IMG/VR virus record: IMGVR_UViG_3300031576_000286
Span: 1 to 21,417 of that record
Length of the DNA: 21,417 nt
Strand: one strand, 5' to 3'
Source: a virus
Below the pieces are notes generated by a model. The model did no database searches and was not told where the DNA came from. It saw only the letters and a program-made list of their open reading frames with translations. Shown here in pieces: positions 1 through 20,942 of the stretch. A program made the translations under genes and the position numbers. Each line of letters opens with the position of its first letter. Within the stretch, counting starts at the first letter, position 1.

Positions 1-2
1 CG

Positions 3-668
3 GTCTCGCGCGACCTCTTCTTCCTCGCGCAGAACGGCTTCAGGTCGGTGTCGCTCATCTCGATCACGGACAACCTGCAGGACAACGACGTGGGCAGCGC
101 GATCGACAAGCTGGTCAAGGCGCAGATTCTGTCCACCGACGACCCACTCTCGATGTACTACCCGAAGCTGGGGCAATTCTGGTGCATCAACGGCTCGACG
201 GTGTGGGTCTACACCTTCAGCCGCACCTCGAAGATCAGCGCCTGGTCGAAGTTCACGCTGCCTTTCGCGGTGGACGACGCGACCGTGCTGAATCAGGATC
301 TCTACGTGCGCACGGGCAACGACGTCTACAGGGTGAGCGACTCGGTCTACAAGGACGGCGTTTCTTCGATTCCGCTGGTCGATGTGCAGATGTTCTTCCA
401 GGACGGCAAGGTCCCAGGCGTGACAAAGCAATTCATGGGCATGAAGGTGATCGGCGAGGGGCAGTGGACGATCAGCCACCTCTTCGCGGTCGAGAACCAG
501 ACGCTCGAGTCGCAAGCGTATGAGTTGTCGGCGATCAGCCAGATGGGCGCGACGCATCCGGTCGAGTTGCTCGCCGAGCGCATCGCGCCGCACCTTACGC
601 ATCAGAAGGACGAGGCGGCCGAGTTGTCGGCGCTGATGCTCTTGTTCGAGAAATTGGGCGTGGTATGA
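3..668 (+). CDS. Phage tail/DNA-stabilisation protein, C-terminal part (partial)
   Basis: The frame is open from the left edge, so the gene starts outside the window and about 221 C-terminal residues are visible. A GTG at 48 is in frame but sits inside a well-formed beta-rich stretch (DLFFLAQNGFRSVSL), so it is unlikely to be the start. The repeated short strands with W/Y/V and motifs such as 'LGQFWCINGSTVWVYTF' resemble beta-propeller-like podovirus tail proteins (P22 gp10 packaged-DNA stabilisation protein or T7 gp12 tail tubular protein B). This is judged from style and from position just before the injection proteins, not from an alignment. The last 45 residues are helical and acidic, unlike the beta part. 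The stop overlaps the next start as ATGA, so the two genes are translationally coupled. Confidence 0.6.
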   Translation, partial: VSRDLFFLAQNGFRSVSLISITDNLQDNDVGSAIDKLVKAQILSTDDPLSMYYPKLGQFWCINGSTVWVYTFSRTSKISAWSKFTLPFAVDDATVLNQDLYVRTGNDVYRVSDSVYKDGVSSIPLVDVQMFFQDGKVPGVTKQFMGMKVIGEGQWTISHLFAVENQTLESQAYELSAISQMGATHPVELLAERIAPHLTHQKDEAAELSALMLLFEKLGVV

Positions 669-1087
669 AGCCTGAACACCTGACGCTTGAGCATCTGCAC
701 GCGTTCCTGCCGCACCTTGGGGCTCGTGACCGAGCGGAAATCCTGCGGATGTACCCGAACCTCGAGGCCTGGGCGCGCTCGAGGATCGAGTTGGGCGGCG
801 CGGCCTGGGCCGGCGTGATCGACGGTGAGGTGATCGTTGTCGGCGGCGTGATCACCAATTCGGCGAAGGAGGGCGTGCTCTGGATTGCTGGGCGCGATGG
901 CTGGGCCCGGCGCCATATCCGCCACGCGCTGCGCGTCTTCGACGCGATCAAGGGCTTCGGCGGCTACACGGCGCTGCGCTGCAAGTGCGTCGCGGACAAC
1001 CTGACCGCGCGGCGTTTCGCCGAGCGGCTGGGGTTCAATGAGATTCAGACCGAAGGCGACCTCGTCCACTACAGGATGGCGACATGA
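665..1087 (+). CDS. GNAT-fold protein, T7 gp13-like virion-associated
   Basis: The 140-residue product has the layout of a small N-acetyltransferase: a central beta strand pair (GVIDGEVIVVGGVI), a helix, then the typical late GNAT segment 'CVADNLTARRFAERLGF', in which an Asn-containing loop precedes a helix and the final strand. Small GNAT-like proteins at this position, after the tail tube and before the internal virion proteins, are known in T7-like and related podoviruses (the gp13/DUF2833 group), where a structural or assembly role is more likely than metabolism. The classical R/Q-x-x-G-x-G/A acetyl-CoA loop is not clear, so catalysis is uncertain. Both ends overlap neighbours by ATGA (665-668 and 1084-1087). 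Confidence 0.65.
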   Translation: MKPEHLTLEHLHAFLPHLGARDRAEILRMYPNLEAWARSRIELGGAAWAGVIDGEVIVVGGVITNSAKEGVLWIAGRDGWARRHIRHALRVFDAIKGFGGYTALRCKCVADNLTARRFAERLGFNEIQTEGDLVHYRMAT

Positions 1088-2010
1088 CGAATCTACTGAA
1101 GTGGATCCTATTTCCAGGCGTACACGTCGTTTGCCGTTTCGGTGGTGATGATGGCGATGGCGGCGGCGGCTTGGGCAGCAACTTCGAGGCCGAAGAAGCA
1201 CGCAAGGGGGCCCTGAGAAAGCGCATCGACCGGATGTACGGCATCGACGCTGATAGAGGCCCAGCGCCCGAGCGCAAGACTTTTACGACTCAAAGAGCCG
1301 GGGAGCCGCCGGAAGGCTGGCACCTGGTCGGTGGCGAAGGTTCCGAAAATATGTGGACCGGTCCGAGCGGTCGCGTGTCCTATGGACCGCCGCCGGCTTC
1401 GACGGTGGATGTCGTCGACGAGGACGCCTACAACAAGGCCGTCGCCGACTTCAACGCGCTCGATAAGGAAACTGTGGACGCACGCACCGCGATGGAGGGC
1501 GAAAACACGAAGCTCGCCAACGCGACCCGGTCCTACTACACCGACCAGCTCGGCCGCGAGTACAACAAAGCCGAGCGTGAGACGCGCTTCAAGCTCGCGC
1601 GCCAGGGCCTCATGGGCGGCAGCGAGGACATCTACCAGCAGGGTGATGTCCGATCTGATCGAGACCTCGGCGCGACGCGCGTCGACGAAGCGGTGCGTCG
1701 GGCGGTGGGGCAAATGAAGACCCAGCGCGAGCAGGAGCGCTTGAACGCGGTGCAGCTCGTTAACAGCGGAGCGGGTGACAGCGCAGTGAGCGCCGCGCAA
1801 GCGGGGCTGAAGAACACCTTCGAGAACGCGAACGCGGCGCAGAAGGTGTCGCTGTTCGATGATCTTTTCACCAACGCTGCGGACGCATTCTCGGCCAACA
1901 ATCTGAACGCGCAGCAGCAACTGCTCGCGGAACGGTACTACAGGCAATTGGGCGCATTTCCGTTCCAACAAATCAGAACGACCTCCGGTAAAACCACCCC
2001 GGATCGCTGA
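1084..2010 (+). CDS. Putative internal virion / DNA-injection protein
   Basis: The 308-residue product has no enzymatic motif. It has a short hydrophobic N-terminus (LLKWILFPGVHVVC), an Asp/Gly-rich linker at about residues 20-30, then a long helical Ala/Gln/Arg/Glu-rich body with many polar coiled-coil-like repeats. This composition, and the position between a GNAT-like gp13-type gene and further helical proteins, fits the ejected internal core proteins of short-tailed phages (T7 gp14-16, P22 gp7/gp20/gp16). The match is one of class and position, and no specific homologue is recognised. The ATG at 1084 is chosen because it overlaps the upstream stop. The next gene follows after three bases. 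Confidence 0.55.
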   Translation: MTNLLKWILFPGVHVVCRFGGDDGDGGGGLGSNFEAEEARKGALRKRIDRMYGIDADRGPAPERKTFTTQRAGEPPEGWHLVGGEGSENMWTGPSGRVSYGPPPASTVDVVDEDAYNKAVADFNALDKETVDARTAMEGENTKLANATRSYYTDQLGREYNKAERETRFKLARQGLMGGSEDIYQQGDVRSDRDLGATRVDEAVRRAVGQMKTQREQERLNAVQLVNSGAGDSAVSAAQAGLKNTFENANAAQKVSLFDDLFTNAADAFSANNLNAQQQLLAERYYRQLGAFPFQQIRTTSGKTTPDR

Positions 2011-2013
2011 GCC

Positions 2014-2733
2014 ATGTTCGATCCATTCTCGCTAGCAATTCTCGCCGCATCGGCGTTCATGAAGATGCAAGCGAACGAGGACGCGGCCAATCGGCGCGAA
2101 GCCTTCCGTCGTTCGATGGAGTCCTACCAGCGCACCAAGGCGAACGAAACTCAAGGCGCGACCGAAGCGTTGCTCAAGAAGCAGACTCCGGAGGCGCGCG
2201 GCGCCGAGTTGGCGGATGTCACGACGGATCGCGAGCGGTCGCTGCGCGACACGGTCGGCGCTGCCCAGGCATTCGATGCACCAGGCATCGCTGGCAAGCT
2301 CCCGAGCGACTACACCGCGGCGCAGGAGGTAAATGCGGCTCGCATCGCCGAGCGCACGCGCAAGGCGATTGAGCAACTCGCGTCAATGGGGGCACCGGGT
2401 GAGCAGGCGCAGGCCTTTGGCCGGCGCTACGGCCAGGCGGCGGGCGTGGTCGATGCGTCCAACCGGGCGAGCGCGAATGTTGGTGAGGGCTATCTCACAG
2501 ACATCAATAACGTGCGTCCCGACCCATTTCTCTCGACGCTAGGGGACGTGGGCATGGCCGTCGGCGGGTCGATGGCTGGCAGCGATGGGAATTCGATCCC
2601 GTGGACCGGGGAAGGGAAACCGTCTCCGTGGGACTACGACGATGCGGCCGCGGTCGGCAAGACCCTGAGAAAACCGACGATCAGCGACCGGCTCAAGTAC
2701 GGCCTCGGCATCTTCGGAACGATGGGACGATAG
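2014..2733 (+). CDS. Putative internal virion protein, gp14-like style
   Basis: The 239-residue product begins with a hydrophobic/amphipathic helix (FDPFSLAILAASAFMKM) followed by an Asn/Gln/Ala/Arg-rich helical region and a Gly/Pro-rich tail. An N-terminal membrane-active helix plus an alanine-rich helical body is the pattern of small podovirus injection proteins such as T7 gp14 or P22 gp7, which form part of a trans-envelope channel. This is inferred from composition and context. The start lies three bases after the upstream stop and the stop directly abuts the next ATG at 2734, so the three genes form a tight unit. Confidence 0.5.
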   Translation: MFDPFSLAILAASAFMKMQANEDAANRREAFRRSMESYQRTKANETQGATEALLKKQTPEARGAELADVTTDRERSLRDTVGAAQAFDAPGIAGKLPSDYTAAQEVNAARIAERTRKAIEQLASMGAPGEQAQAFGRRYGQAAGVVDASNRASANVGEGYLTDINNVRPDPFLSTLGDVGMAVGGSMAGSDGNSIPWTGEGKPSPWDYDDAAAVGKTLRKPTISDRLKYGLGIFGTMGR

Positions 2734-4107
2734 ATGCCGGTCTTTCGGACTCAGCCGAGCGGCAACCTGACAGGCGCGATCCGGCGGCTCCTCGCTTCGG
2801 GCAGCAGCAGCTTGAATCCGTTGCAGGAGATGCAAGCCGATGCAATGGCGGCCGGCACGGCGCACAAGATGGGCCTGGTCGAGCAGATGCGCACCAAACT
2901 GGAGAGCGATCGAGCCGCCGAGGCGCGGCGGAACGACCCAACAGCGCGCACCGAGTATGCGGGGCACGCGGCGGGCATCGACATGCCGGATGCGACGCGC
3001 CTCTACAAGGCGATCTCCGGCGCGCGCGAGCGCCCGTCGCAATCCGGCGGCGTGGACATGGACGACGAGGGCAACCGGATGCCCGATGTTACGTTCGCGA
3101 AGCCTGAGAACCTGCAGCCAGGGCAGGACCGGCTTTTCAGAGCGGCGCTCGCTTCTCTGCAAGGCATGGGGCTCGCCACCAAGGCGACGAACGCGGAGGA
3201 ACTGGCGAAGGCGACCGGGCACACTCAGGAGCAGGGGCTGATCGAGCGCGTTCAAGACTTCATCGAGCGCGGCGATCTTCAACGCGCCTCGGCGATGAGC
3301 CAAGGAGCGAAACCCGGCACAGCGATCAAGTTGCACCAGAACCTCGGCGACACTGGCGCAACGTTTGCGCCGGCTACCGGGGCAGTGCAAGCCGAACCGG
3401 CAAATCCTCTGCTGGCCGGAACGCTCACCGAGCGTGCGTCGAAGGCCGAGCAACAGCGAGCAGCCGCAGTCGCTTCGCGCGCCGCCGCTGGAGCGAGCAC
3501 TGCGCATGCCGATTTGTTCCGTGCGCAGGCCGACAAGACCCGCAAGGAGAAACCGGAGGGCGAGCTCGGCAAGCCGCCAACTGGTTATCGCTGGGGACCG
3601 CCGGACGAGAACGGGGCACCGACCCTCGTGCCGGTTGCTGGCGGGCCGGCCGAGAAGCTCGGCGAGACGCAGGTGAAACAGATAGTCGGCGTGAAGAACA
3701 CTCGCGACGCGATCACTGAGTACCGCGAAGCGCTCAAAAAGTGGGGTGGCGCCGACATCATGAATCCAGCCTCGCGCGCCAGAATGGGCACCGTCTACAA
3801 CAACATGTTGCTGCAGGCGAAGGAAGCCTACAACCTCGGCGTCCTGAACGGCCCGGACTACATGATCCTGCAGGAGGTAATCACGAGTCCGAGCACCCTG
3901 AAGGGCGGCATCACCTCGAAGGAGGCGCTGGACGACCAGGCGGCAAAACTCGATGAGGTGATGGGGCGCATCGGCTTGCAGGTGGACGCATCGAGTAAGC
4001 AGCGTGGCGGCAACGCGGGGCCATCCGCGTCGCCGAGACCCGAGACCACCAAGGTTTTGAACGGCACGACCTACGTGAAAGTAGGTGGAAAGTGGTATCA
4101 GCAATGA
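2734..4107 (+). CDS. Putative internal virion / DNA-injection protein
   Basis: The 457-residue product is mostly helical, with a basic N-terminus (QPSGNLTGAIRRLL) and a long Ala/Glu/Lys/Arg-rich centre containing potential coiled coils around residues 215-275. Its C-terminal part, about 310-440, looks more globular and contains 'YNNMLLQAKEAYNLGVLNGPDYMIL', a pattern seen in large phage internal proteins. No catalytic motif is visible. The context (third of four consecutive helical proteins downstream of a tail protein) suggests an ejected core protein. The stop overlaps the next gene's ATG at 4104. Confidence 0.5.
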   Translation: MPVFRTQPSGNLTGAIRRLLASGSSSLNPLQEMQADAMAAGTAHKMGLVEQMRTKLESDRAAEARRNDPTARTEYAGHAAGIDMPDATRLYKAISGARERPSQSGGVDMDDEGNRMPDVTFAKPENLQPGQDRLFRAALASLQGMGLATKATNAEELAKATGHTQEQGLIERVQDFIERGDLQRASAMSQGAKPGTAIKLHQNLGDTGATFAPATGAVQAEPANPLLAGTLTERASKAEQQRAAAVASRAAAGASTAHADLFRAQADKTRKEKPEGELGKPPTGYRWGPPDENGAPTLVPVAGGPAEKLGETQVKQIVGVKNTRDAITEYREALKKWGGADIMNPASRARMGTVYNNMLLQAKEAYNLGVLNGPDYMILQEVITSPSTLKGGITSKEALDDQAAKLDEVMGRIGLQVDASSKQRGGNAGPSASPRPETTKVLNGTTYVKVGGKWYQQ

Positions 4108-5843
4108 AGCCGGTCACCGACCCCGCTTTGCTCGCGCAGCTCGAGGACGGCGAAGGCGCTCCGGCGCCGGCCGCCTCGAATTTGAAACCGGTTACCGATC
4201 CGCAGCTCATCGAGCAGCTCGAAGCGCCTAACCCGACGACGGACATGTCCACCGGCCAGAAAGTCGCGGCCGGCGCCGGCAAGGCGGTGATGGATCTCGG
4301 TCGTGGCGCAAAGCAGGGGTTGGACATTCCGGCAGTCTGGCTCGAGCGGAAATTTGAAGGGCCGCCCACGCTGGCCGAACTCATCACCGGGGAGCGCAAG
4401 CAGTCGCTTCTCGGTCGTCTCGGCAAGGCGCTTGGCATGCCTACCGCAGCGGACAGCGCGCGCGAGACTAAGGCAGAGATCGAAGAGGCGCGAAAGTTGG
4501 AAGCACCGCTCATGGCCACGACAAGCGGCAAGGTCGGTAACGTCCTGGGTGCCGTTGCGCTTGCCGTATTGACCGCGCCGGTGGCTGCGTTGAATACAGT
4601 TCGTGGAGCGGCAGCGGTCGGCGCGACCCAAGGTTTTCTGCAACCGACAGTCGAGGGCGAGAGCCGCACTTTGAATACCGCCGCAGGTGGCGCTGGCGGT
4701 GCAATCGGGCAGAAGGTTGGGAACAAAATCGCCGAATTCATCAGCCGCAAGTTGAGCAGCACGGCCGCCTCCGAAGCGGCGCGCAAGAGTGCCGACGCAT
4801 CGAAGAACGCCGCTCTCGCCGCCGGACGAGATGCGGGCTACGTAGTACCACCTTCGCAGGCGAACCCCACCGCAGTCAATAGGGTACTGGAGAGCGTTGC
4901 CGGCAAGCTCAGCACCGCTCAGAGTGCGTCGGCGAAGAATCAAGAAGTGACCAATCGGCTTGCCGCCCTGGGCCTTAGGCTTCCGCACAATCGCCCGATC
5001 ACTCCCGAGGCGCTTGCCGCGATCCGCAAGGAGGCTGGACAGGCATACGAGGCCCTCGGGCAGGGGCAGTTCGTTGCCGATGCGACTTACAAGGCTAGGC
5101 TCGAAGGCCTTGCTGCGGCGCAGAAGAAGTTGGCCGAGGAATTCCCAGAACTCGCCAGCAAGGATGTGCTCAAGATCGCCGAGGGCATGAAGAAAGAGGC
5201 CTTCGATGGCCGCACCTTGGTGGAGTTGACCAAAGCTCTTAGGGAGAAGGCGACCGCCGCATACCGGGCAGGGGAGGCTGGGGCGGCGAAGTTCTACAAG
5301 GGTGCTGCACGTGAGGTCGAGGACCTGATGGAGCGGAACCTTGCCTACACCGGGAACGGCGGCCCCAATGCATTGAGAGAGTTCAAGGAGGCAAGAAAGC
5401 TGATCGCCAAGTCCTACGCGGCCGAAGCTGCCCTGAATCCAGCCACGGGCAATATAGACGCAGCGGTGTTCGCCCAGGCCGTGAAGAAGGGCAAGCCCAT
5501 CAGCGACGAGTTCAAGACGATCGGCGAGTTTGCCTCCGCGTTCCCGAAGGCGACCCGCCAGGTGGATAAGGTTGGTTCGGTGCTGCCTGGCAGCCCGCTT
5601 GATTGGGCGACCGCAGGTGGGGTCAGCGCCATTTCGGGCAACCCCGCGCTGATGCTGGGCGTCCTCGCGCGCCCGGCGGCGCGATCGGCGCTGTTGTCGA
5701 AGTTCTTCCAGAGTATCGGGACGACGCCAAGTTACGGGCCGAGCGTCGTGCTACGGGATGCGGATGCTGCGGGGAGAACCGAGCTGGCGAAGCGGATCGC
5801 GGCTGGCTTGGGCACGGCCACCGCGCTTGAGGGCGTGCGCTAG
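4104..5843 (+). CDS. Large injection-type virion protein with VTDP-repeat N-terminus
   Basis: The ATG at 4104 is preferred over a GTG at 4092 because it forms an ATGA overlap with the upstream stop. The product has about 579 residues. Its N-terminus carries a duplicated short motif, KPVTDPALLAQLE and KPVTDPQLIEQLE, about 20 residues apart. A hydrophobic Ala/Val/Gly-rich stretch follows at about residues 140-205, which could insert in a membrane. A long helical body comes next, then a second hydrophobic Gly/Ala region near the C-terminus. This matches the size and style of P22 gp16-type or T7 gp15/16-type ejected proteins. No lytic transglycosylase motif was seen. Its stop codon shares CTAG with the stop of the convergent minus-strand gene. 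Confidence 0.55.
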   Translation: MKPVTDPALLAQLEDGEGAPAPAASNLKPVTDPQLIEQLEAPNPTTDMSTGQKVAAGAGKAVMDLGRGAKQGLDIPAVWLERKFEGPPTLAELITGERKQSLLGRLGKALGMPTAADSARETKAEIEEARKLEAPLMATTSGKVGNVLGAVALAVLTAPVAALNTVRGAAAVGATQGFLQPTVEGESRTLNTAAGGAGGAIGQKVGNKIAEFISRKLSSTAASEAARKSADASKNAALAAGRDAGYVVPPSQANPTAVNRVLESVAGKLSTAQSASAKNQEVTNRLAALGLRLPHNRPITPEALAAIRKEAGQAYEALGQGQFVADATYKARLEGLAAAQKKLAEEFPELASKDVLKIAEGMKKEAFDGRTLVELTKALREKATAAYRAGEAGAAKFYKGAAREVEDLMERNLAYTGNGGPNALREFKEARKLIAKSYAAEAALNPATGNIDAAVFAQAVKKGKPISDEFKTIGEFASAFPKATRQVDKVGSVLPGSPLDWATAGGVSAISGNPALMLGVLARPAARSALLSKFFQSIGTTPSYGPSVVLRDADAAGRTELAKRIAAGLGTATALEGVR

Positions 5844-6046
5844 ACCGTATTCATCAGGTACAGGAACCAAACGGCGATGCCGCCGTACACGATCCACGCC
5901 GCGCCCTTGCCAATGCGCGGATCGAAGAGGATGGTCTTAAGTCTCCCGCTCGGCAGGTAGCGCCTGCAAAGCCAGGTCGTGCCGCCGAAGAGCACGGCAG
6001 CCACCGCAGGTCCCAACACGATTCCCAGTATTGTGGTTGAGGTCAT
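5840..6046 (-). CDS. Small inner-membrane protein, two TM segments
   Basis: The 68-residue product has two likely membrane segments, at about residues 5-24 (ILGIVLGPAVAAVLFGG core) and 49-65 (AWIVYGGIAVWFLYLM). They are joined by a basic loop with RRYLPSGR that would face the cytoplasm if both termini are outside. The ATG at 6046 is chosen because it overlaps the HNH gene's stop as ATGA. It is the last gene of a three-gene minus-strand operon (RHH, exported HNH nuclease, this protein) lying against the late virion genes. Function is unknown. The position matches that of P22 sieA, an inner-membrane superinfection-exclusion protein, but there is no visible sequence likeness. Confidence 0.65.
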   Translation of the reverse strand: MTSTTILGIVLGPAVAAVLFGGTTWLCRRYLPSGRLKTILFDPRIGKGAAWIVYGGIAVWFLYLMNTV

Positions 6047-6318
6047 CGCTGCGCCGTCTCGCGGGCCGTCTTCTCCCTGTGCTGCTCGATGGTGAGCCAT
6101 TGCATATTGTGCGTGGCATCGGCGCCGCCGCGGTGCAGGGGACGAATGTGGTCCACTTGGTAGCCCGGGCAGGCGCCGCGAGCGTTGGCCGTTGACGGGC
6201 AGGGGTTGGACCGCTGGAACTTGGCGCGCACGGACTTGCTGCGCGGCTCGCGGGCGTCGACATCCATGACCGGTAGGGCCAAGGCCAGCGCGAGCGCGGC
6301 GGACAGTGTGCGGATCAT
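6043..6318 (-). CDS. Exported HNH nuclease
   Basis: The 91-residue product starts with a clear Sec signal peptide (MIRTLSAALALALALPVMDVDA, probable cleavage after Ala22). It continues with a compact HNH domain: 'CPGYQVDHIRPLHRGG' with the catalytic Asp56-His57 pair, then Asn71 in 'THNMQW' and a final polar helix. Cys40 and Cys50 flank the domain entry and could form a disulfide in the periplasm. Small secreted HNH proteins with a C-P-[x]n-RGACPGY-x-x-DH signature are a recognised group in Proteobacteria and phages; their biological role is not established as far as I know. Both ends overlap neighbours by ATGA. In this context it could attack incoming DNA in the periplasm. Confidence 0.85.
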   Translation of the reverse strand: MIRTLSAALALALALPVMDVDAREPRSKSVRAKFQRSNPCPSTANARGACPGYQVDHIRPLHRGGADATHNMQWLTIEQHREKTARETAQR

Positions 6319-6551
6319 CGTTTCTTCTTGGCGGTGGAGTGCAACTCTATCGCAGCGCGGAGCAGGCGGCGCACGGCAGGATCGGATAGTAGCCGTTCGG
6401 CATCAATGAGACGCCCTTCGAGGTAGGCCGTCAGAACGTCCGTAACGTGTTGATTTAACGAACGCGAGTTCTTGTCAGCGTCCGCCTTGAGAGCGTCCTT
6501 CAAGGCCCTGGGCATGCGAAACGAGTAGGAGATGGATTCGGTCTCGGTCAT
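6315..6551 (-). CDS. Arc/Mnt-like ribbon-helix-helix repressor
   Basis: The 78-residue product has the Arc-type RHH signature: a beta strand 'SYSFRMPRAL', then helices 'KDALKADADKNSRSLNQHVTDVL' with the typical RSLN turn, covering residues 7-43. A basic helical tail at 45-75 could tetramerise. Both size and layout resemble P22 Mnt (about 82 residues, RHH plus C-terminal helix) more than the shorter Arc. It heads the minus-strand operon with the exported HNH nuclease and the TM protein, and is divergent from another RHH gene. It probably binds the 31-bp dyad in the 6552-6644 gap. No good Shine-Dalgarno is visible before the ATG at 6551, and no convincing minus-strand promoter was found. Confidence 0.85.
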   Translation of the reverse strand: MTETESISYSFRMPRALKDALKADADKNSRSLNQHVTDVLTAYLEGRLIDAERLLSDPAVRRLLRAAIELHSTAKKKR

Positions 6552-6582
6552 GGGCCGGAACCGTGCCAGACACTAGCTGCAC

Positions 6583-6611
6583 TTGCAATAAGCTACATCT
6601 GCATCTATGAT
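6583..6611 (+). promoter_or_regulatory. Sigma70 promoter for the rightward RHH cassette
   Basis: TTGCAA (6583-6588) and TATGAT (6606-6611) are separated by exactly 17 bases, giving a near-consensus promoter reading rightward into the RHH gene at 6645. The -10 hexamer lies at the centre of a 31-bp inverted repeat, so a protein bound there would block RNA polymerase. The predicted start is near 6618, giving a leader of about 27 bases that includes AAAGGAGG. Confidence 0.75.
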
Positions 6612-6622
6612 GCACTTGTAGC
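6592..6622. promoter_or_regulatory. 31-bp dyad operator between the divergent RHH genes
   Basis: The arms are GCTACA (6592-6597) paired with TGTAGC (6617-6622), and inside them TGCATC-TAT-GATGCA (6600-6614). Everything is symmetric around 6607 except two bases on each side. A direct repeat, TGCACTTG, also occurs at 6578-6585 and 6611-6618, 33 bp apart. RHH proteins bind such sites as dimers of dimers, so this is the expected operator of one or both neighbouring RHH proteins. Confidence 0.75.
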
Positions 6623-6644
6623 ACATATGCCGAAAGGAGGGCCG

Positions 6645-6830
6645 ATGCGCAAGAAGGAAGGGAAGAGCTTCACGCTGTATCTGCCGGCGGACGTAATGGC
6701 GCGGGCGAAGCTCGTGGCTGACGAGCGCGACAGAAGCACCTCGCAAATCGTGACGGCCGCGCTGCGGGAGTACCTGAGGAAGGAAGCTGAAGCGGCAGCA
6801 CGAGGTGCATCAACACCCCGCGCCGCCTGA
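6645..6830 (+). CDS. Ribbon-helix-helix DNA-binding protein, Arc-like position
   Basis: The ATG at 6645 is chosen over 6627 because AAAGGAGG (6633-6640) lies between them and can only serve the later one. The 61-residue product has the RHH order: strand 'KSFTLYLPADV', helix 'MARAKLVADERDR', turn STSQ, then helix 'IVTAALREYLRKEAEAAARG'. This is the CopG/Arc class of dimeric repressors. It is the first gene of the rightward cassette and probably controls its own promoter, whose -10 box sits inside the adjacent dyad. Its size is near that of P22 Arc (53 residues), which likewise leads the ant operon divergent from mnt. Confidence 0.8.
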   Translation: MRKKEGKSFTLYLPADVMARAKLVADERDRSTSQIVTAALREYLRKEAEAAARGASTPRAA

Positions 6831-6855
6831 CCAACCGATCTAAAAGGAGACGCGG

Positions 6856-7221
6856 ATGGCTGAGAGCAATTGTAGCGAAGATAGAAAGTGGCCGGAGGGT
6901 GCATACCATCGGCTGACAGCGGTAAGGGATGTGTCCTTCGGCAAGTTGCGGCATGCCAGCTATGGCCTTGACACCGTTCTGAGGATGCTTGCCGATGCGC
7001 TGGCGGCGGACCCGGATTGTTCCGAGCACCTTGACGACAACCGCAAGGGCGGCTTGATCTCGGCCGCGCTCATGTGCTCGGAGGCGATGACTGAGTTCGT
7101 CGAGGATCACGAGCGCGAAGACACGAAGGGGCGACGCGCGTTGTTCGCAGAGCCAACCGAACGCGATCCGGTCGATCTGAGGGCTTATCGAATGACGCGC
7201 GCGAAAGAGGTTACGGCATGA
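6856..7221 (+). CDS. Hypothetical protein, antirepressor-position gene
   Basis: The product is 121 residues and not recognised. The ATG at 6856 is preceded at good spacing by AAAGGAGA (6843-6850). The protein is acidic and helical, with a middle segment 'DTVLRMLADALAADPDC' and 'GGLISAALMCSEAMTEFVEDHERED'. It has no TM segment and no signal peptide. It follows an Arc-sized RHH repressor, which is the place of ant in P22. An antirepressor role is therefore a hypothesis from position only. The stop overlaps the next ATG at 7218. Confidence 0.65.
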   Translation: MAESNCSEDRKWPEGAYHRLTAVRDVSFGKLRHASYGLDTVLRMLADALAADPDCSEHLDDNRKGGLISAALMCSEAMTEFVEDHEREDTKGRRALFAEPTERDPVDLRAYRMTRAKEVTA

Positions 7222-7403
7222 GCAATGCCCCTCGCCGCGAGAAGCGCACGGCTGCTGTCACGGTGCATCTAGTTCCGACCGTGCGATACGCACTGGAGCA
7301 GCTCGCATCGCACGAGGGGCGGAGTATTTCCACCGCAGCCGCTTTGGCGATCCAGCGCGACCCGATCGTCAAGGTTTTCATCCAGAAGCTCGGCCAGCAA
7401 TGA
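7218..7403 (+). CDS. Small basic RHH-like protein
   Basis: The 61-residue product begins 'RREKRTAAVTVHLVPTVRYALEQLA' and continues 'SHEGRSISTAAALAIQRD'. A possible strand is followed by two helices joined by a GRSIST turn, as in RHH proteins, but the fit is looser than for the two RHH genes upstream. The N-terminal REKR motif is shared with the next gene and with the gene at 20939. Translation is coupled to the upstream gene by ATGA at 7218 and to the downstream gene by ATGA at 7400. Confidence 0.6.
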   Translation: MSNAPRREKRTAAVTVHLVPTVRYALEQLASHEGRSISTAAALAIQRDPIVKVFIQKLGQQ

Positions 7404-7597
7404 TCCGACGTGAGAAGCGATCGGCGCAGTTGAAGGCCAACGTCCCCACATCGCTGCGGGAGACCTACGAGCAATTCATCGCAAACGACCCACGCACCAC
7501 CCTGAGCGATTACGTCTACGACGTGCTGCAGGAGCACGCCGCAGTGCGGCTCGCGAAGGAAACGATGCTGCATGGTCACCAGAGAGGACAACAATGA
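7400..7597 (+). CDS. Small phage protein, paralogue of the gene at 20939
   Basis: The 65-residue product is a clear paralogue of the 70-residue protein encoded at 20939-21151. Over the 50-residue block starting at REKRSA, about 30 positions are identical without gaps. Shared landmarks are REKRSAxLKAxVPxSLR and TLSDxVYxxL followed by an Ala-rich helix. The pattern (short strand-like segment, then two helices with a TLSD turn) is compatible with an RHH-type DNA-binding fold but not proof of one. One copy lies in the immI-like island and the other beside cro. Coupled at both ends by ATGA. Confidence 0.7.
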   Translation: MIRREKRSAQLKANVPTSLRETYEQFIANDPRTTLSDYVYDVLQEHAAVRLAKETMLHGHQRGQQ

Positions 7598-8169
7598 CTG
7601 GAATCGCGCTACCGAAGCTCAATTTGCAGCGGGTGAGCATCACCCTGATCGGCGACTCGCCGCTGATCTGCAACCAGTGGTCGAAAAAGGCGATCGGCGC
7701 CATGCTCGACAAGCAGATGAAGCGCGCGAAGGAGGCTAAAGCTGCGAAGGACCCGAAGCAAGATTACGCCAACAGCCTCTACCCGCACCCCGATGGCGGC
7801 TACGGTTTCCCGATGGTCGCTTTCAAGTCTGCGGCTGTGGATGCCTGCTCGCACGTCGATGGCCTGACGAAGGTGGAGGCGCGCGGTGCTTTCCACCTGC
7901 AGGGCGAACTGGCGTGCATCCAAGGAGAGCCGTCGATGCGCGAGGACATGGTGCGTATCGCAATGGGCACCGCCGACATTCGTTACCGTGGCGAGTTCGA
8001 GAAGTGGAGCACGACTCTGGAGGCGGTGGTCAACGTCGGGGTGCTGTCGATCGAGCAGCTCGTCGGCTTGTTCGAGGTGGCTGGCTTTGCAATCGGAGTA
8101 GGCGAGTGGCGGCCGCAGCGCGACGGCAGCTACGGGCGCTTTCACGTCGCGCGGGAAGGGGAGGTCTGA
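7594..8169 (+). CDS. Conserved phage protein of unknown function (pair member 1)
   Basis: The product has 191 residues. I recognise the style as a widespread phage protein, usually seen next to a partner like the following gene. It has an N-terminal beta segment 'RVSITLIGDSPLICNQWSKKA', a Lys-rich linker with 'KDPKQDYANSLYP', and 'YGFPMVAFKSAAVDAC'. A beta-rich C-terminal half ends 'GFAIGVGEWRPQRDGSYGRFHV'. There is no catalytic motif, TM segment or signal peptide. It starts by ATGA overlap at 7594, and its TGA overlaps the partner's ATG as TGATG. In other phages such genes are often early genes, so finding it between the virion and tail-fibre genes is notable. Confidence 0.75.
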   Translation: MTGIALPKLNLQRVSITLIGDSPLICNQWSKKAIGAMLDKQMKRAKEAKAAKDPKQDYANSLYPHPDGGYGFPMVAFKSAAVDACSHVDGLTKVEARGAFHLQGELACIQGEPSMREDMVRIAMGTADIRYRGEFEKWSTTLEAVVNVGVLSIEQLVGLFEVAGFAIGVGEWRPQRDGSYGRFHVAREGEV

Positions 8170-8666
8170 TGGCACGCAGGATGGTGTACGCCTGGCGCGA
8201 AGGCGCGAGGGTGAGCCTCAATGCCCAAATCGCCGGCCAGCGGCTCGAGCAGTTAAAGCGCGAGCACCGCGGGCTGGTAACGCCGGAGGCTGTAGTTACC
8301 GATGCGCGGCCGAAACGCTCGCCTCTGCACGATCACTTCGAATGGGAAGACAGCGAGGCCGCGAAGAAGTATCGGCTCGATCAGGCACGAGAGCTGTTAC
8401 GCTCGATCGTCGTGCGCATCGACGACCGACGCCTCCCGGACAAATCCGTGCGAGCGTTCGTGCACGTCGAAGTGCCGGACAACGGCGAGAGCCGCAGGGG
8501 TTATATGGGCGTGCGCGAGGCGTTGTCAAACAAAGAACTCCGGGCGCAGGTGCTGCGGTGTGCGCTTGGGGAGCTGAAATCGTGGCAGGAGCGGTATCGA
8601 GAACTGCGCGAGTTTGGCGACGTGTTCGAGGCAATCGAAGAAGCAGAAGAAAAAATCGCAGCATAG
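8169..8666 (+). CDS. Conserved phage protein of unknown function (pair member 2)
   Basis: The 165-residue product starts at 8169, from the TGATG junction with the upstream gene. It contains a recognisable block seen in many phage hypotheticals: 'YAWREGARVSLNAQ', 'GLVTPEAVVTDARP', 'SPLHDHFEWEDSEAAKKYR', then a beta/alpha region and a C-terminal coiled-coil-like helix 'ELKSWQERYRELREFGDVFEAI'. The charged 'HDHFEWED' segment is conserved in my memory of the family, but its role is unknown. It closes the rightward island operon and is followed by the pentameric repeat and a strong terminator. Confidence 0.75.
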   Translation: MARRMVYAWREGARVSLNAQIAGQRLEQLKREHRGLVTPEAVVTDARPKRSPLHDHFEWEDSEAAKKYRLDQARELLRSIVVRIDDRRLPDKSVRAFVHVEVPDNGESRRGYMGVREALSNKELRAQVLRCALGELKSWQERYRELREFGDVFEAIEEAEEKIAA

Positions 8667-8671
8667 AGAGC

Positions 8672-8820
8672 GTGGCAGGCTGGGCTGGGCAACGCACGGC
8701 ACGGCAACGCACGTCAACGCACGGCAGGCATGGCCCGGGATCGCTAGGCAAGGCGTGGCAAGGCCCGGGGAGGCAAGGCAAGGCGGGGCCAAGCCCGGCA
8801 AGGCGTGGCTGGTCAAGGTA
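8672..8820. repeat. Degenerate pentanucleotide-period GGCNN array
   Basis: For about 150 bases GGC (or CGC, AGC, GTC) recurs every five bases, mostly as GGCAA, GGCAC, GGCGT or GGCCC, roughly 30 units, with a single one-base slip near 8727. It lies directly after the stop of the upstream gene and before the terminator. A period of five is not codon structure, so the reading frames that run through it are artefacts. The function is unknown. Confidence 0.85.
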
Positions 8821-8830
8821 CGGAGCAGTG

Positions 8831-8863
8831 CGAAGGGCGCTCTTTCGAGCGCCCTTCGTTTTT
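8831..8863 (+). terminator. Rho-independent terminator
   Basis: A perfect 12-bp stem, CGAAGGGCGCTC (8831-8842) with GAGCGCCCTTCG (8847-8858), closes on a TTTC loop and is followed by TTTTT (8859-8863). It ends the rightward island operon and insulates it from the tail-fibre operon. Confidence 0.95.
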
Positions 8864-8868
8864 CTCGA

Positions 8869-8896
8869 TTGACTACCACGCCAGAAAAGCTATTCT
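8869..8896 (+). promoter_or_regulatory. Sigma70 promoter of the tail-fibre operon
   Basis: TTGACT (8869-8874) and TATTCT (8891-8896) are spaced by 16 bases, just after the terminator. The predicted start is near 8903, leaving an untranslated leader of about 100 bases before the ATG at 9002. I see no riboswitch class in that leader. TGGAGG at 8991-8996 is the ribosome-binding site. Confidence 0.65.
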
Positions 8897-9001
8897 CGCT
8901 AGCGATCCGGCTGTACGTGGGTTCGCCTCCACAGACTGAGCAGCGGTTCGTCACCGCCACGGCGCTGCAAGGGCGCAATCGTTCAATCGCTGGAGGTGAC
9001 G

Positions 9002-9337
9002 ATGCCGACATACCGAGTCAAGCCCGAGCCAGACTTCAATACGCCCATCGCGGCCGAAGGGCAGAAGAAGAAGCGTTATCCGACGGTCTACGTGAAGGCT
9101 TCGCCAGAGATCATCGACGCGCTCGAGGTCGGCCAACCTGCCGTCGTCACTCTCAAAGGCAAGATCGTCGGGCTCACCGCCGAGGACCGCGAGCAGGGCG
9201 GCCGGCACGAGCTGCAGATCGAGCTACGTGAGGTCGAGGCTTACCCAGCCGAGGGCGATGAAGAGCCCGAGGAGAAAGAGCCCGACATGAAGGCGGTGAT
9301 CGACGCTGCCCTCGGCTACAGCAAGAAGAAGGAATGA
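9002..9337 (+). CDS. Phage protein of unknown function, acidic C-terminus
   Basis: The ATG at 9002 is chosen over a GTG at 8996 because TGGAGG (8991-8996) is correctly placed for it. The product has 111 residues. The first 75 form a compact beta-rich unit ('PTVYVKASPEIIDALEVGQPAVVTLKGKIVGLTAED' with a final 'HELQIELREVEAY'). An acidic stretch 'EGDEEPEEKEPD' and a short helix follow. The layout of a small beta domain plus charged tail is like some phage head or tail accessory proteins, but I do not recognise a family. It is the first gene behind the 8869 promoter. An ATGA lies at its end, but the frame that opens there does not look like a protein (see the frameshift note for the next gene). 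Confidence 0.65.
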   Translation: MPTYRVKPEPDFNTPIAAEGQKKKRYPTVYVKASPEIIDALEVGQPAVVTLKGKIVGLTAEDREQGGRHELQIELREVEAYPAEGDEEPEEKEPDMKAVIDAALGYSKKKE

Positions 9338-9386
9338 ACGGCGCACCTTCTCGAGGACGGCGCTGCGGATCACGGCGCACGGCCTG

Positions 9387-9623
9387 TTGCTCGGGGGCGC
9401 GCCAGCAGCCGCCGTGCAGCCCGCTGAGGCAATGCCCGCGGCTTCGGCGCCGTTCCTCGGGATCCGCGCAATCGAGTGGGACAGCGACATGACGCCTGCG
9501 GAGAAGCGCGAGGCGGTCAACGAGAAGAATTCGGAGATGCAGGACATCGCCGAGGAGCAGACGCTGCTTTATCAGGCGGCGAAGAAATCCTATAGTCGGT
9601 CGGCCACTGAAGGAACAAGGTAA
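9387..9623 (+). CDS. Small phage protein with probable frameshift at its start
   Basis: The real coding frame ends at 9623 and reads 'APFLGIRAIEWDSDMTPAEKREAVNEKNSEMQDIAEEQTLLYQAAKKSY', a plausible helical phage protein. Its start is unclear: TTG at 9387 and ATG at 9432 are in frame but poorly supplied with a Shine-Dalgarno. The same frame stays protein-like further upstream (ERRTFSRTALRITAHGLLLGG). An ATGA coupling codon at 9334 sits exactly one base out of frame with it. One extra base just after that ATG would give MNRRTFSRTALR, so a one-base deletion or a sequencing error is likely. The stop TAA directly abuts the next ATG. Confidence 0.55.
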   Translation: MLGGAPAAAVQPAEAMPAASAPFLGIRAIEWDSDMTPAEKREAVNEKNSEMQDIAEEQTLLYQAAKKSYSRSATEGTR

Positions 9624-10163
9624 ATGGCGCAACCCACGCGCTTTTCGATCTCGGTCGATTTCTCAGACGAAGAGGCAAGCGGTGTAGCAGGTCGCTCGAC
9701 CGTTCGCACCGCCATGCTCGATGCGCTGATGGCGGCGCTGAAGGTCACGACCGACCAGATTTGCGACAACCTCGCGCTGATCCAGAGGGACGATGGGCGT
9801 CTGCTCGATCAGGTCGTCCAGATCCCGTCCCTCAGCACGGACGTGCTGGCGCTCCTCTCCAGCGCTGCGTGGACCGTGCGCGGGGGCTGGGTCACAGCGA
9901 CCGCCTACGCACGGGGCGATGTTGTGCTGCAAGGCGGCATCGTCTACGTCTGCATGGTGACCCACATCTCGGGCACCTTCGCCACCGATCTCGCGGCCGA
10001 GAAGTGGGGTCAGGTCACGGCGAACTCAACGGCCGCGACGATCAGCTTCTCGCCGACCTCAACTCTCTCCGCGGTCACCGTGCAGGCCGCGATCGCGGAG
10101 CTCGACCAGGAAGTGCGGCCGGTGCAGACCATCCTCGTACGTGAACTCTTCAACGGGCTATAG
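9624..10163 (+). CDS. Tail fibre-associated protein with carbohydrate-binding-like module
   Basis: The 179-residue product has a helical N-terminal region with 'VRTAMLDALMAALKVTTDQICDNLALIQRDDG', as in the virion-binding ends of many phage fibres. The segment 'WVTATAYARGDVVLQGGIVYVCMVTH', ending 'FATDLAAEKWGQV' (about residues 89-130), matches the aromatic pattern of small carbohydrate-binding modules related to ChtBD3/CBM5-12. The last 45 residues (TISFSPTSTLSAVTVQAAIAELD) resemble the stalk of a fibre. It begins directly after the upstream stop with AAGG in front of the ATG. It is probably part of the receptor-binding apparatus with the next two genes. Confidence 0.65.
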   Translation: MAQPTRFSISVDFSDEEASGVAGRSTVRTAMLDALMAALKVTTDQICDNLALIQRDDGRLLDQVVQIPSLSTDVLALLSSAAWTVRGGWVTATAYARGDVVLQGGIVYVCMVTHISGTFATDLAAEKWGQVTANSTAATISFSPTSTLSAVTVQAAIAELDQEVRPVQTILVRELFNGL

Positions 10164-10166
10164 ACC

Positions 10167-10580
10167 ATGAGCGCAAATCCGACCCTGATCTCGAACGTGC
10201 GCGACTTCGTCGCGAAGATTGTCAACGCCGATGGTACCGGCAAAAAGACCATCGTGGTGCCGGTCGGCGCGGGCACGCGCCTGAAGAACCTGATCATCTG
10301 TAGCGACGACACGAGCCAGCGCACGCTGCAACTCGTGAAGACAGTTGCCGCGGTGGACTACATCCTCGGCGAGGTGGACATCCCGGTCGGTGCCGGCACC
10401 GATGGCGCGACCGCAGCGGTCGACTTCTTCGCTGGCTCGCGCCTTAAGGGCCTGCAGACCGACGGGATCGCGAAGTGGATCGACTGCGCGAGCGGCACGA
10501 CGCTCTCGCTCCAAGCGAAGGTGGCCGTCACCGCGGCGAAGACGATCTACATCGCCGGTGAGGGCGGAGACTTTACCTAA
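10167..10580 (+). CDS. Probable virion/tail protein, unknown
   Basis: The 137-residue, beta-rich product has many Val/Thr/Gly-containing strands ('KKTIVVPVGAGTRLKNLIICSDD', 'TTLSLQAKVAVTAAKTIYIAGEGGDF') and no signal peptide, TM segment or enzyme motif. The likely fold is an all-beta sandwich. It lies between two fibre genes, with three bases after the upstream stop and a TAATG overlap with the next gene, so it is probably a component or decoration of the tail fibre. No family is recognised. The Shine-Dalgarno is weak. Confidence 0.55.
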   Translation: MSANPTLISNVRDFVAKIVNADGTGKKTIVVPVGAGTRLKNLIICSDDTSQRTLQLVKTVAAVDYILGEVDIPVGAGTDGATAAVDFFAGSRLKGLQTDGIAKWIDCASGTTLSLQAKVAVTAAKTIYIAGEGGDFT

Positions 10581-11623
10581 TGCTCGGCGGCCTCGACCTT
10601 CACTCCATTGCTGCAGCGGTAAAGCGCGCCATAACTGCCGTTGGCGTGCAAATCGGCGACTTCGTTGTGACGGGGGCGCTGAGTGTTAGTGGCGACATTA
10701 GCCCGTCGCAGATCACGAGCAACCAGAACGACTACAACCCGAGTGGCCTCTCTGCGGCGAGCGTGCTGCGGCTCTCGACCGATGCGAGCCGGAATATCAC
10801 CGGTCTGCAGGGTGGGGCTGATGGTCGCATTTTCAAACTACTGAACGTCGGCGCGAATCCGCTCGTCTTGAAGACGCAGGATGCCAACAGCAGCGTAGCC
10901 AACCGCTTCGACCTCGAAAATGACATCACATTGCTGCCCGATCAGGGCATCGTGCTCTGGTACGACGCAACCGATAACCGCTGGCGCTCTGCGCGGGTGA
11001 CGAACGGCGAGTTTCGGAGCGTGCAGGTCTTCACCGGCAGCGGCACCTGGACCAAGCCTGTCGGACTCAGGCGCATCAAATCCACCATCGTCGCTGGTGG
11101 TGGTGGTAGCGGTGGGGCTGCGCAAGGCGTCGGCACTGGCGCAGGCGGCGGCGGCGGCGGCGGTTATTCGATCAAATGGATCGAGGCGGCGGCGCTGGGG
11201 GCCACGGAAACGGTCACCGTGGGCGCTGGGGGCACTGGTGGCGCGTCGGGCGCGAACAACGGCACTGCTGGCGGCACCACTTCATTTGGCGCGCATCACT
11301 CGGCAACTGGCGGCGGGGCCGGCGCAGGGGCGACCGCGAGCAACGTCCTCGCTGGCACTGCGGCCGGCACGGGGTCTGGTGGCAATGTCAATGGCGTCGG
11401 CTCTCCTAGCGGTCAGGCAACGGTTGCTGGAGCGAGCGGCTTTGGTGGTCTAGGCGGGTCATCAATTTTGGGCGGAGGGGGTGTCCCCCCTGGGGGGAAC
11501 GCGAACGGTAATGCAGGCAGCAACTACGGCGGTGGCGCGTCCGGAGCCTGTTCAAACAATTCCAGCACCGCAGCCGGTGCCGCGGGCGCGGGAGGTATTT
11601 GCATCGTCGAGGAGTTTTTCTGA
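10580..11623 (+). CDS. Tail fibre with glycine-rich receptor-binding domain
   Basis: The 347-residue product has three visible parts. An N-terminal section (about 1-55) contains 'DFVVTGALSVSGDISPSQI'. A beta-rich middle follows with 'RNITGLQGGADGRIFKLLNVGANPLVLK' and 'LLPDQGIVLWYDATDNRW', typical of phage fibre modules. From 'FTGSGTWTKPVGLRRIKSTIVAGGGG' (about residue 152) to the end lies a Gly-rich domain of about 195 residues. The 'SGTWTKP...' strand leading into poly-Gly sheets and the closing 'GGICIVEEFF' are typical of glycine-rich fibre-tip domains thought to bind the host receptor. The GGT/GGC-rich DNA is prone to slippage and may vary between relatives. TAATG overlap at the start. Confidence 0.85.
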   Translation: MLGGLDLHSIAAAVKRAITAVGVQIGDFVVTGALSVSGDISPSQITSNQNDYNPSGLSAASVLRLSTDASRNITGLQGGADGRIFKLLNVGANPLVLKTQDANSSVANRFDLENDITLLPDQGIVLWYDATDNRWRSARVTNGEFRSVQVFTGSGTWTKPVGLRRIKSTIVAGGGGSGGAAQGVGTGAGGGGGGGYSIKWIEAAALGATETVTVGAGGTGGASGANNGTAGGTTSFGAHHSATGGGAGAGATASNVLAGTAAGTGSGGNVNGVGSPSGQATVAGASGFGGLGGSSILGGGGVPPGGNANGNAGSNYGGGASGACSNNSSTAAGAAGAGGICIVEEFF

Positions 11624-19531: not shown

Positions 19532-20097
19532 CGGCAGTACGTGTCGACCAGCGTGCCGCGGCGAGTCGACGTGCAGATTAGGGGTTTGGGGAACGGGTTG
19601 TAGACTGGCAGTGCTTGGCGGGCCCCGGCGGCAGCGCCGCGCGTGATCGCCGCTCGCCGCTGCTGATCGGCAAGGGCCTGTCGCTGCTCGATGGCAGCGA
19701 GTTGCTGATCCATCGCAGCACCGAGCTGGGCGACCGTCTTGTTGTACTCCCCGAACGTGATTTTCCCGAGGTATAGGTCGGCGCGCGCGGCCTGCTCTTT
19801 GGTCACGGCGCTGTTGAAAATGATCAAGGCTTCGGAGGGCGCGTCAGACAATTCCTTCACTAGGGCATTCGCGCATCGGATCTTCCTGCGGTCGAGCTCG
19901 ATCAGGGCAACCTGCTGCTCCTCCGTCGGCCTCGACTGATCCGAGAGCTGCTCGAGCGTCGGCGGGGCCGTGAAGGGCAGCTTGCTGCGGATCGAGTCCA
20001 GCACCTTATCGGCGAAACTCTCCTTGCACTTGATGTCTGAATCCGCCCAGGCGGTCGCGGCGGCGACGGCGAGTAGGAGAATCTGGATCATTTTCAT
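19528..20097 (-). CDS. Exported protein coupled to the repressor
   Basis: The ATG at 20097 overlaps the repressor stop as ATGA. The 189-residue product has a signal peptide (MKMIQILLLAVAAATAWA, cleavage after Ala18). A helical body follows, with an Ala/Gln coiled coil around 120-160 (AAMDQQLAAIEQRQALADQQ), and then a short beta end 'PLICTSTRRGTLVDTYCR'. Four cysteines (24, 75, 175, 188) could make two disulfides. There is no lipobox. No family is recognised with certainty. Co-transcription with the repressor predicts expression in the lysogen; a periplasmic exclusion factor acting with the next gene's membrane protein is plausible. Confidence 0.7.
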   Translation of the reverse strand: MKMIQILLLAVAAATAWADSDIKCKESFADKVLDSIRSKLPFTAPPTLEQLSDQSRPTEEQQVALIELDRRKIRCANALVKELSDAPSEALIIFNSAVTKEQAARADLYLGKITFGEYNKTVAQLGAAMDQQLAAIEQRQALADQQRRAAITRGAAAGARQALPVYNPFPKPLICTSTRRGTLVDTYCR

Positions 20098-20588
20098 TTT
20101 GAGGACTCCTTCGTGCGCTGGTGGTCAAGCATCGTCTTCGCCGTGATGTTCTCCTGGTGCCACCTCTCGAACTCAGCATACGACTTTCCGATCGGCTTGC
20201 CGTGCCGCAGCCACGGGAAGGACTTGTCGATCACCGTGTAGATGAAGACCTGCTCGCGAATGAATTCCCTGGCCTGCGACTGGAGTTGATCAAAGGCGAG
20301 GGCGATCTGCAGCGCTTCGTCGGACAGGGCGCGGTACGCGGTGCCCGGCTCGCGCGCCTTGGGCGGTGATTCTCCAGCGGCAACTAGGTAGTCCTCGTAC
20401 GAGATGCCCATGAGCCCGGCGACCGGGCCGACCTCGGCTCGAGGAATGCCGCGGGCCCGCCAGTTCGTGATCCGCCCGTCCGAATAACCGGTGGCGCGCA
20501 GGCGCCCGCGGTTCTCCTTCGCGCTCTTGAACCAGTCGAAGAGCGGCTTGGCCGAGACGTTGCCCGATTTCGCTTGTGCCTTGGTCAT
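20094..20588 (-). CDS. Phage repressor (CI-like, no S24 protease domain)
   Basis: The ATG at 20588 lies against operator OR3. Upstream in-frame codons would place the start inside OR2/OR3. The 164-residue product has an HTH-like N-terminus ('LFDWFKSAKENRGRLRATGYSDGRITNWRARGIPRAEV' then 'GLMGISYEDYLVAAGE'). Its C-terminal half is helical ('LSDEALQIALAFDQLQSQAREFIREQVF') and not the beta-rich S24 fold: no Ala-Gly cleavage site and no Ser/Lys dyad motif are visible. So SOS self-cleavage is unlikely. It should bind the TAAAC-N5-GTTTA sites and autoregulate. With no ribosome-binding site and a -10 box eight bases upstream, its mRNA is probably leaderless, as for lambda cI from PRM. Confidence 0.75.
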   Translation of the reverse strand: MTKAQAKSGNVSAKPLFDWFKSAKENRGRLRATGYSDGRITNWRARGIPRAEVGPVAGLMGISYEDYLVAAGESPPKAREPGTAYRALSDEALQIALAFDQLQSQAREFIREQVFIYTVIDKSFPWLRHGKPIGKSYAEFERWHQENITAKTMLDHQRTKESSK

Positions 20589-20602
20589 AAACAAGAAGTT
20601 TA
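20588..20602. promoter_or_regulatory. Operator OR3
   Basis: TAAACAAGAAGTTTA, a perfect TAAAC-N5-GTTTA site that touches the repressor start codon and contains the PRM -10, so occupancy should shut off the repressor gene. Confidence 0.8.
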
Positions 20603-20625
20603 GGGAGCCTGTTCTAAACATGCCG
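20597..20625 (-). promoter_or_regulatory. PRM, repressor-maintenance promoter
   Basis: On the minus strand TAAACT (20602-20597) is a good -10, eight bases before the repressor ATG. The -35 at 17-base spacing (CGGCAT) is poor and lies within OR2, as expected for a promoter that needs activation by repressor bound at OR2. Confidence 0.55.
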
Positions 20626-20629
20626 TTGA
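20615..20629. promoter_or_regulatory. Operator OR2
   Basis: TAAACATGCCGTTGA, one mismatch from the palindrome, 23 bp from OR1 and 27 bp from OR3. It overlaps the -35 of PR and the -35 of PRM. Confidence 0.75.
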
Positions 20630-20654
20630 CAAAAGGCTAAACGCTGTGTTTAAA
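20626..20654 (+). promoter_or_regulatory. PR, rightward early promoter
   Basis: TTGACA (20626-20631, consensus) and TTTAAA (20649-20654) are spaced by 17 bases, the same design as PL. OR1 fills the spacer and -10. The predicted start (20660-20662) is only a few bases from the ATG at 20664. Confidence 0.88.
20638..20652. promoter_or_regulatory. Operator OR1
   Basis: TAAACGCTGTGTTTA, a perfect TAAAC-N5-GTTTA site between -35 and -10 of PR. Confidence 0.85.
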
Positions 20655-20663
20655 ATGGGACCC

Positions 20664-20942
20664 ATGCGAACGAACGAAGACGAATCGCCCGTAGACATGG
20701 CCGTCGATGCCGTGGGCTCGATCACCGAGTTGGCTCGGCGCCTGGGGGTGCTGCCGCAGACGATCGTGAATTGGCGAAAGCGCGGCATTCCGGTTGAGCA
20801 GGTGCCCGAAGTCGAGGCCGCCACGATCCCGCGGGACGAGCACGACAAGCCCGTAGAAGGCGCCGAACCGCGCGTGCATCGCTCACAGTTACGACCTGAC
20901 ATGCCGAAGCTGTTTCCACCGGTGGAGCGGGCGGCGGCATGA
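20664..20942 (+). CDS. Cro/YdaS-like regulator
   Basis: The 92-residue product starts at the ATG at 20664; an earlier ATG at 20655 lies before the expected transcript start. The HTH is clear: 'AVGSITELARRLGVLPQTIVNWRKRGIPVEQVPEVEAAT', the YdaS/Cro pattern in which 'IPxExVxxVExAT' follows the recognition helix. The later 'RSQLRPDMPKLFPP' is also typical of that family. It is divergent from the repressor across the three-site OR, as cro is in lambda and P22, and probably binds OR3 first to block PRM. The mRNA would be leaderless or nearly so. Confidence 0.88.
   Translation: MRTNEDESPVDMAVDAVGSITELARRLGVLPQTIVNWRKRGIPVEQVPEVEAATIPRDEHDKPVEGAEPRVHRSQLRPDMPKLFPPVERAAA

Follow-up and report, generated by a model that had tools for sequence, protein, structure and literature searches.

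Between the genes for the internal virion proteins and those for the tail fibres, the phage genome fragment IMGVR_UViG_3300031576_000286 carries an island in which two divergent regulator genes stand over a set of unassigned genes, and the question that this locus raises is what these regulators control. The window analysed is the whole 21,417-nucleotide record, a single metagenomic viral contig, and the sister genomes with which it was compared are incomplete. The initial annotation had read the island as a second immunity locus of an undescribed type, similar in topology to immI of phage P22, with a set of small plus-strand open reading frames in place of the antirepressor gene. Our analysis indicates that the island is very probably a VIPR system controlled by ribbon-helix-helix (RHH) proteins, lying among the late genes of a temperate T7/PBR31-like phage and aimed at a sister phage. 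VIPR, described only recently, is an RNA-guided system related to CRISPR, found for example in SUSP1 and in a P. fulva prophage (PMC13142463, bioRxiv 2026.04.26.720920). It consists of the RAMP protein Vipr, an accessory gene and vrRNAs of 9–16 YNNGG repeats with a tail; the NN pairs of the vrRNA read DNA with one base skipped, and competing phages are repressed (PMC13142463).

Vipr, its accessory gene and the vrRNA array

The plus-strand gene at 7594–8169 is predicted to encode a Cas7-like RAMP effector guided by RNA. Its product matches phrog_4652 (3e-26), and a profile built from 22 relatives retrieved one significant solved structure, that of SUSP1 Vipr (36pp, E = 5e-10), the homology being distant and confined mainly to the C-terminal half. 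The predicted model (pLDDT 86) matches the Csm3 and type VII Cas7 RAMP proteins with a probability of 1.0 and modest TM-scores of 0.4–0.5, and the G-loop (GVGEWRP...G.F), of which the GVGEWRP part is conserved, is present. Homology and modelling together identify the protein as a Vipr of RAMP fold. The adjoining plus-strand gene (8169–8666) occupies the position of vap and matches phrog_15946 (1e-28); a structure search with its product gave no significant match to a known fold. It shares a locus with vipr in 29 of the 30 viral relatives, and the pair is found together in unrelated genomic contexts. Two of the plus-strand genes that had been labelled unknown are accordingly Vipr and its accessory gene.

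The island had been taken to end at 8666. It can be seen that the feature runs to 8859, and therefore the vrRNA array lay outside the coordinates first assigned. The array (8674–8826, plus strand) is a period-5 tract of GGY/NN pentamers with 4-nucleotide GGCA phase shifts at 8674 and 8723, giving segments of 9 and 16 units separated by these breaks; approximately 21 of 30 units are exact GGY. An array of the same period adjoins vipr in most loci with Vipr relatives and is absent from Markov-shuffled sequence. Across the relatives' arrays 85 of 109 four-base units read GGCA and segments of 8–11 units are the commonest, a punctuation with which the two breaks in the window agree. The array is followed by a vrRNA 3' tail (GGAGCAG) and a hairpin-terminator with a 13-pair stem and a T run (fold z = -4.0), the two together at 8822–8859 on the plus strand. 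This terminator, located at 8830–8859, is the one that had been proposed to stand ahead of the tail fibres. An Rfam scan of the window gave no match, the outcome to be expected of an RNA family not yet described. Judged by sequence, the genes at 7594–8666 and the GC-rich tract at 8674–8859 constitute a complete VIPR system.

Probable guide targets in sister phages

Guides were decoded by the published rule of a one-nucleotide skip. Guide 1 (8678–8722, plus strand) reads TG TG AA AC AC AA AC AA AC, and guide 2 (8727–8806, plus strand; 16 units) reads AT CC AT TA AA GT AA CC GA AA AA GG CA CC AA GT, its units 1–9 (8727–8771) bearing the match described below. When 2.9 million viral contigs were scanned blind with units 1–8 of guide 2 and a one-nucleotide skip, there were 19 matches, only one of which fell in a relative of the window phage, where it lay exactly on the ATG of a gene that we call U. 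The contig concerned (L050) belongs to a sister phage, with 48–79% identity to the window in five backbone proteins of the left-hand part and 52% identity between its U and the gene that adjoins the array of the window. None of the other matches from the guide scans was in a phage related to that of the window. Matches to units 9–16 of guide 2, or to guide 1 alone, were set aside as chance, there being no backbone relation and no extension into neighbouring units.

Sister phages were then gathered through the conserved protein at 48–668, and alternative skips were compared over seven family genomes. With a skip of one, units 1–9 of guide 2 (guide 2a) match 18 of 18 positions at the U start codon of sister G003 (29843–29868), the phage to which the blind scan had led; skips of 0, 2 or 3 give 12–13, and none of 400 shuffles reaches 18. 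The window's own U scores 15 of 18. Guide 1 finds its best site, 16 of 18 with a skip of one (other skips, 12–13), at G003 29805–29830. This site, within the acidic C-terminus encoded by the gene before U in G003, ends 12 nucleotides ahead of the guide 2 site. If G is taken as the skipped base, guide 1 translates to VVEDDEDED, which differs from the VVDDDEDDDED of G003, and the acidic end of the G004 protein is shorter, suggesting that the exact target belongs to an unsampled relative of G003.

Independent arrays behave similarly. Phage G001 is approximately 90% identical to the window over 1–3104 and 87% over 8822–10596, and the whole stretch between is replaced; at the same site it carries a different Vipr, lacking its N-terminus (3e-5 to SUSP1 Vipr), and homology resumes at the shared vrRNA tail (8822). 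Guide 1 of the G001 array matches 19 of 20 positions in G004, with a skip of one only, and its second guide matches 21 of 24 in the window gene at 2734–4107, with an equal score in G001's own copy. Further out in the clade, one guide from the L024 array (7735–7925) matches the vipr of L009 (8100–8131) at 21 of 22 positions and its own vipr at 17 of 22. From the coordinates, the skipped base falls at the wobble position for guide 2a, for guide 1 of G001, for the second G001 guide site and for the L024–L009 match. A third VIPR lies next to the immunity region of G003. As far as sequence matches can tell, recognition of competitor DNA with a one-nucleotide skip appears to hold for this family. 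Since the guide array decodes to sister-phage sequences, the island has the appearance of a programmable weapon with which phages compete among themselves.

Several observations weigh against this conclusion. Approximately 9 of 30 array units depart from GGY. Guide 1 is of low complexity, 6 of 400 unit shuffles equal its score, and its skipped base is not at the wobble position. Units 10–16 of guide 2 match nothing in the family genomes, so that the guide boundaries are putative. A scan of the genome_contigs set with guide 2a gave 5 matches, about the number expected by chance, with no recognised relative among them, and the G003 array has no significant target, its best site (16 of 18, in G004) not exceeding shuffles. 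The unmatched last units of guide 2 and the unmatched G003 array, together with the position of U beside the array, would fit a genuine VIPR for which the sister is not the target, the match to U having arisen by chance or the array having been derived from the adjoining U region. We consider this unlikely, because the two guides match neighbouring sites in one sister, a one-nucleotide skip is required, the sister's U is matched better than the adjacent own copy, and the G001 array, which is independent, behaves likewise. A further explanation, that the cassette has decayed, its genes retained by chance and its array non-functional, would account for the several non-GGY units, for the irregular 9- and 16-unit segments and for the truncated vipr of G001. 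It is less probable still: vipr and the accessory gene are intact, with a strong coding signal and all invariant residues, the promoter, the dyad and the terminator are all present, and the guides still match a sister phage.

A VIPR aimed at a sister phage might also act as a device for allele exclusion. In the sister the two guide sites, one in the last part of the gp2734-type gene and the other where U begins, lie 12 nucleotides apart across an uninterrupted junction. The island of the window sits between its internal-protein and U genes, where the 90%-identical phage has an unrelated Vipr. The guides would thus hit the flanks of one and the same junction, and competing VIPRs would replace each other at this hot spot by recombination at the vrRNA tail, silencing alleles that lack the island or carry a rival one. 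We put this forward tentatively, regarding it as somewhat less probable than its negation.

RHH regulators and the borders of the island

All the genes named by the initial annotation are open and coding-like under a codon model trained on the window. Upstream of vipr the divergent RHH pair is present as had been proposed. RHHa (6315–6551, minus strand) is Mnt/Arc-like (Pfam Arc 2e-4, above the cut-off), and its best natural solved relative is the Mnt repressor (1mnt, E = 0.007). RHHb (6645–6830, plus strand) is CopG-like (RHH_5 3e-5; PDB 9kkd 4e-4) and probably starts at the ATG at 6645, behind an AGGAGG box, rather than at the alternative ATG at 6627. The two genes flank a sigma70-like rightward promoter (6583–6611, plus strand; TTGCAA-17-TATGAT, 9 of 12 positions, a consensus match only), the -10 of which is overlapped by a predicted operator. 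This dyad (6592–6622) has two 14-nucleotide arms (6592–6605 and 6609–6622), 86% complementary, around a 3-nucleotide spacer, and direct repeats of TGCACTTG occur at 6578 and 6611 in the same operator-like region.

The remainder of the plus operon consists of three small genes. No family match was found for the 121-amino acid protein at 6856–7221. RHHc (7218–7403) is a small RHH-like protein (phrog_3431, Arc-like, 1.3e-5), distantly similar to the product of the next gene (7400–7597). The latter is a paralogue (52% identity) of the gene at 20939–21151, and a homologue (64% identity) also lies upstream of the VIPR in G003. The stretch at 20094–21151 has the appearance of an ordinary immunity region, with a gene in the CI position on the minus strand and a YdaS/Cro-like helix-turn-helix (HTH) gene on the plus strand, followed by a 70-amino acid gene. 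The window's ordinary CI/Cro-type switch is at 20094–20942, away from the island, and the gene adjoining it has an island paralogue, which gives the impression of an immunity-type operon that was duplicated or relocated.

On the minus strand, RHHa shares an operon with two further genes. The protein at 6043–6318 has an HNH nuclease domain (phrog_333, 1.7e-8; Pfam HNH 0.0017, under the cut-off) and a hydrophobic, signal-like N-terminus, and hydropathy gives approximately two hydrophobic segments for the small membrane protein at 5840–6100, for which family searches gave no match. Both had been described in these terms. They are dispensable for the VIPR account and may be separate cargo.

The left flank codes for internal virion proteins. 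The island's left border is a 579-amino acid protein (4104–5843, plus strand) with 37% identity to 'putative internal protein C' of Xanthomonas phage PBR31, so the label of injection-type protein is fair. Relatives at 29–43% identity occur in other viral contigs, in none of which the island follows; it is absent from all six internal-protein relatives and from PBR31, where the tail spike gene comes immediately after. In a 90%-identical sister the 579-amino acid protein is replaced by one of 1116 amino acids without a Pfam match (L099 3967–7317). The right flank comprises the window's own gene U (9002–9337, plus strand; 52–60% identical to U of G003 and G004) and the tail-fibre genes. Right behind the vrRNA terminator, in 8869–8977, is a promoter-like TTGACT-16-TATTCT that is kept in G001; the block at 8908–8977 recurs elsewhere in sister phages G002 and G003 and is possibly a shared late leader. 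At the far end of the contig (21290–21417) a tandem repeat of approximately 60 bp (gcccgaggtgcgggcgaag...) runs off the sequence.

The backbone is T7/PBR31-like and not P22-like, and the island sits in its late region. A true homologue of P22 immI, with Mnt/Arc-type repressors over an antirepressor and a superinfection-exclusion membrane protein alongside, would agree with the divergent RHH pair at the dyad, with the Mnt/Arc-like character of RHHa and with the place between internal protein and tail genes. However, family searches gave no antirepressor or Ant-like match among the plus-strand genes and no SieA match among the island proteins, including the small membrane protein at that place; the payload is Vipr with its array, and the backbone is PBR31-like. 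Homology to immI is therefore very improbable, and the resemblance is one of analogy. What stands of the initial annotation is the divergent island with its genes, dyad and terminator, and an immunity-like locus second to the CI/Cro switch; its type is not undescribed, since the payload is a VIPR system (PMC13142463).

A comparison of gene order in relatives had been suggested as a check, and the part found to be conserved is the Vipr–accessory pair with its array and not the RHH pair. Relatives of RHHa were not found in viral contigs, nor those of RHHb in phages; the RHH genes of the window had no match at the 30 viral loci bearing Vipr relatives or in the named phages below, and the upstream neighbours of vipr in other loci have no regulator family in common. 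Regulators vary from phage to phage. Vipr relatives with GGY/NN arrays were found in mycobacteriophage cluster F, in Gordonia phages ODay and Pipp, in cyanophage Cy-LDV1 and in LESphi2, with the accessory gene in all except LESphi2. These pairs differ from that of the window in being annotated only as hypothetical and in adjoining regulators of HTH and CI/Cro types. The gp48 gene of mycobacteriophage Donkeykong and the extended start of its gp49 (L032 5531–5835), as well as Pipp gp43 (L034 6617–6842), overlap such arrays and are therefore probably vrRNA rather than protein genes. In ODay the array lies between gp19 and gp20 (L033 6638–6795), and the cassette at L033 4751–7254, in which two divergent HTH regulators accompany the Vipr pair, is inserted between the tail assembly chaperone and tape measure genes; its layout is that of the window, with a different regulator family.

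Proposed mechanism and relation to known systems

What the sequences provide is a Vipr homologue of RAMP fold paired with a second gene, an array, and guide matches with a one-nucleotide skip; from these the following mechanism can be proposed. The RHH proteins would repress the operon that runs from RHHb to vipr, the accessory gene and the array, acting on the rightward promoter through the dyad and so timing its expression; operon and array would form one transcript ending at 8859. Vipr subunits would coat the vrRNA of GGY/NN pentamers, whose NN pairs would read target DNA with one base skipped between pairs. The complex may then block late transcription in the sister where the internal-protein gene ends and U begins. 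The phage's own U would be spared by three mismatches, and its own genome lacks the guide 1 site.

The locus provides an independent test of the one-nucleotide-skip code on a Vipr far from that of SUSP1, the decoding having been blind to the answer, and it makes available one phage contig with the weapon and another with its target. It also reveals that two unrelated VIPRs occupy one site in nearly identical phages, and that VIPR arrays are concealed as 'hypothetical proteins' in well-studied mycobacteriophages.

In comparison with class 1 CRISPR effectors (Cas7/Csm3), the Vipr of the window is alike in its RAMP fold, by structure comparison, and differs in being a single RAMP with an NN-pentamer array in place of a spacer array; family and gene scans found no cas genes in the window. 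With P22 immI the island shares divergent RHH regulators at one operator region, the Mnt-like one on the minus strand, and a position beside the tail genes; it differs in having no detected ant or sieA, and in its VIPR payload and T7/PBR31-like backbone. The closest likeness is to the VIPR systems of SUSP1 and the P. fulva prophage, in the Vipr RAMP of approximately 20 kDa, the adjacent accessory gene, the GGY/NN array with its 3' tail, the carriage by a phage, and the one-nucleotide-skip matches, which fall both in competitor phages and in further VIPRs. The preprint distinguishes seven VIPR types and accessory genes vap1–6 (PMC13142463). A difference is the punctuation of the array by GGCA every 8–11 units, which may equal the staggered arrays of the preprint. 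We conclude that, VIPR being already known from the 2026 preprint, what is new here is the decoded sister-phage target, the exchange at a hot spot and the setting in an RHH-regulated late-region island, the targets being late structural genes of sister phages rather than the lysis-lysogeny switch.

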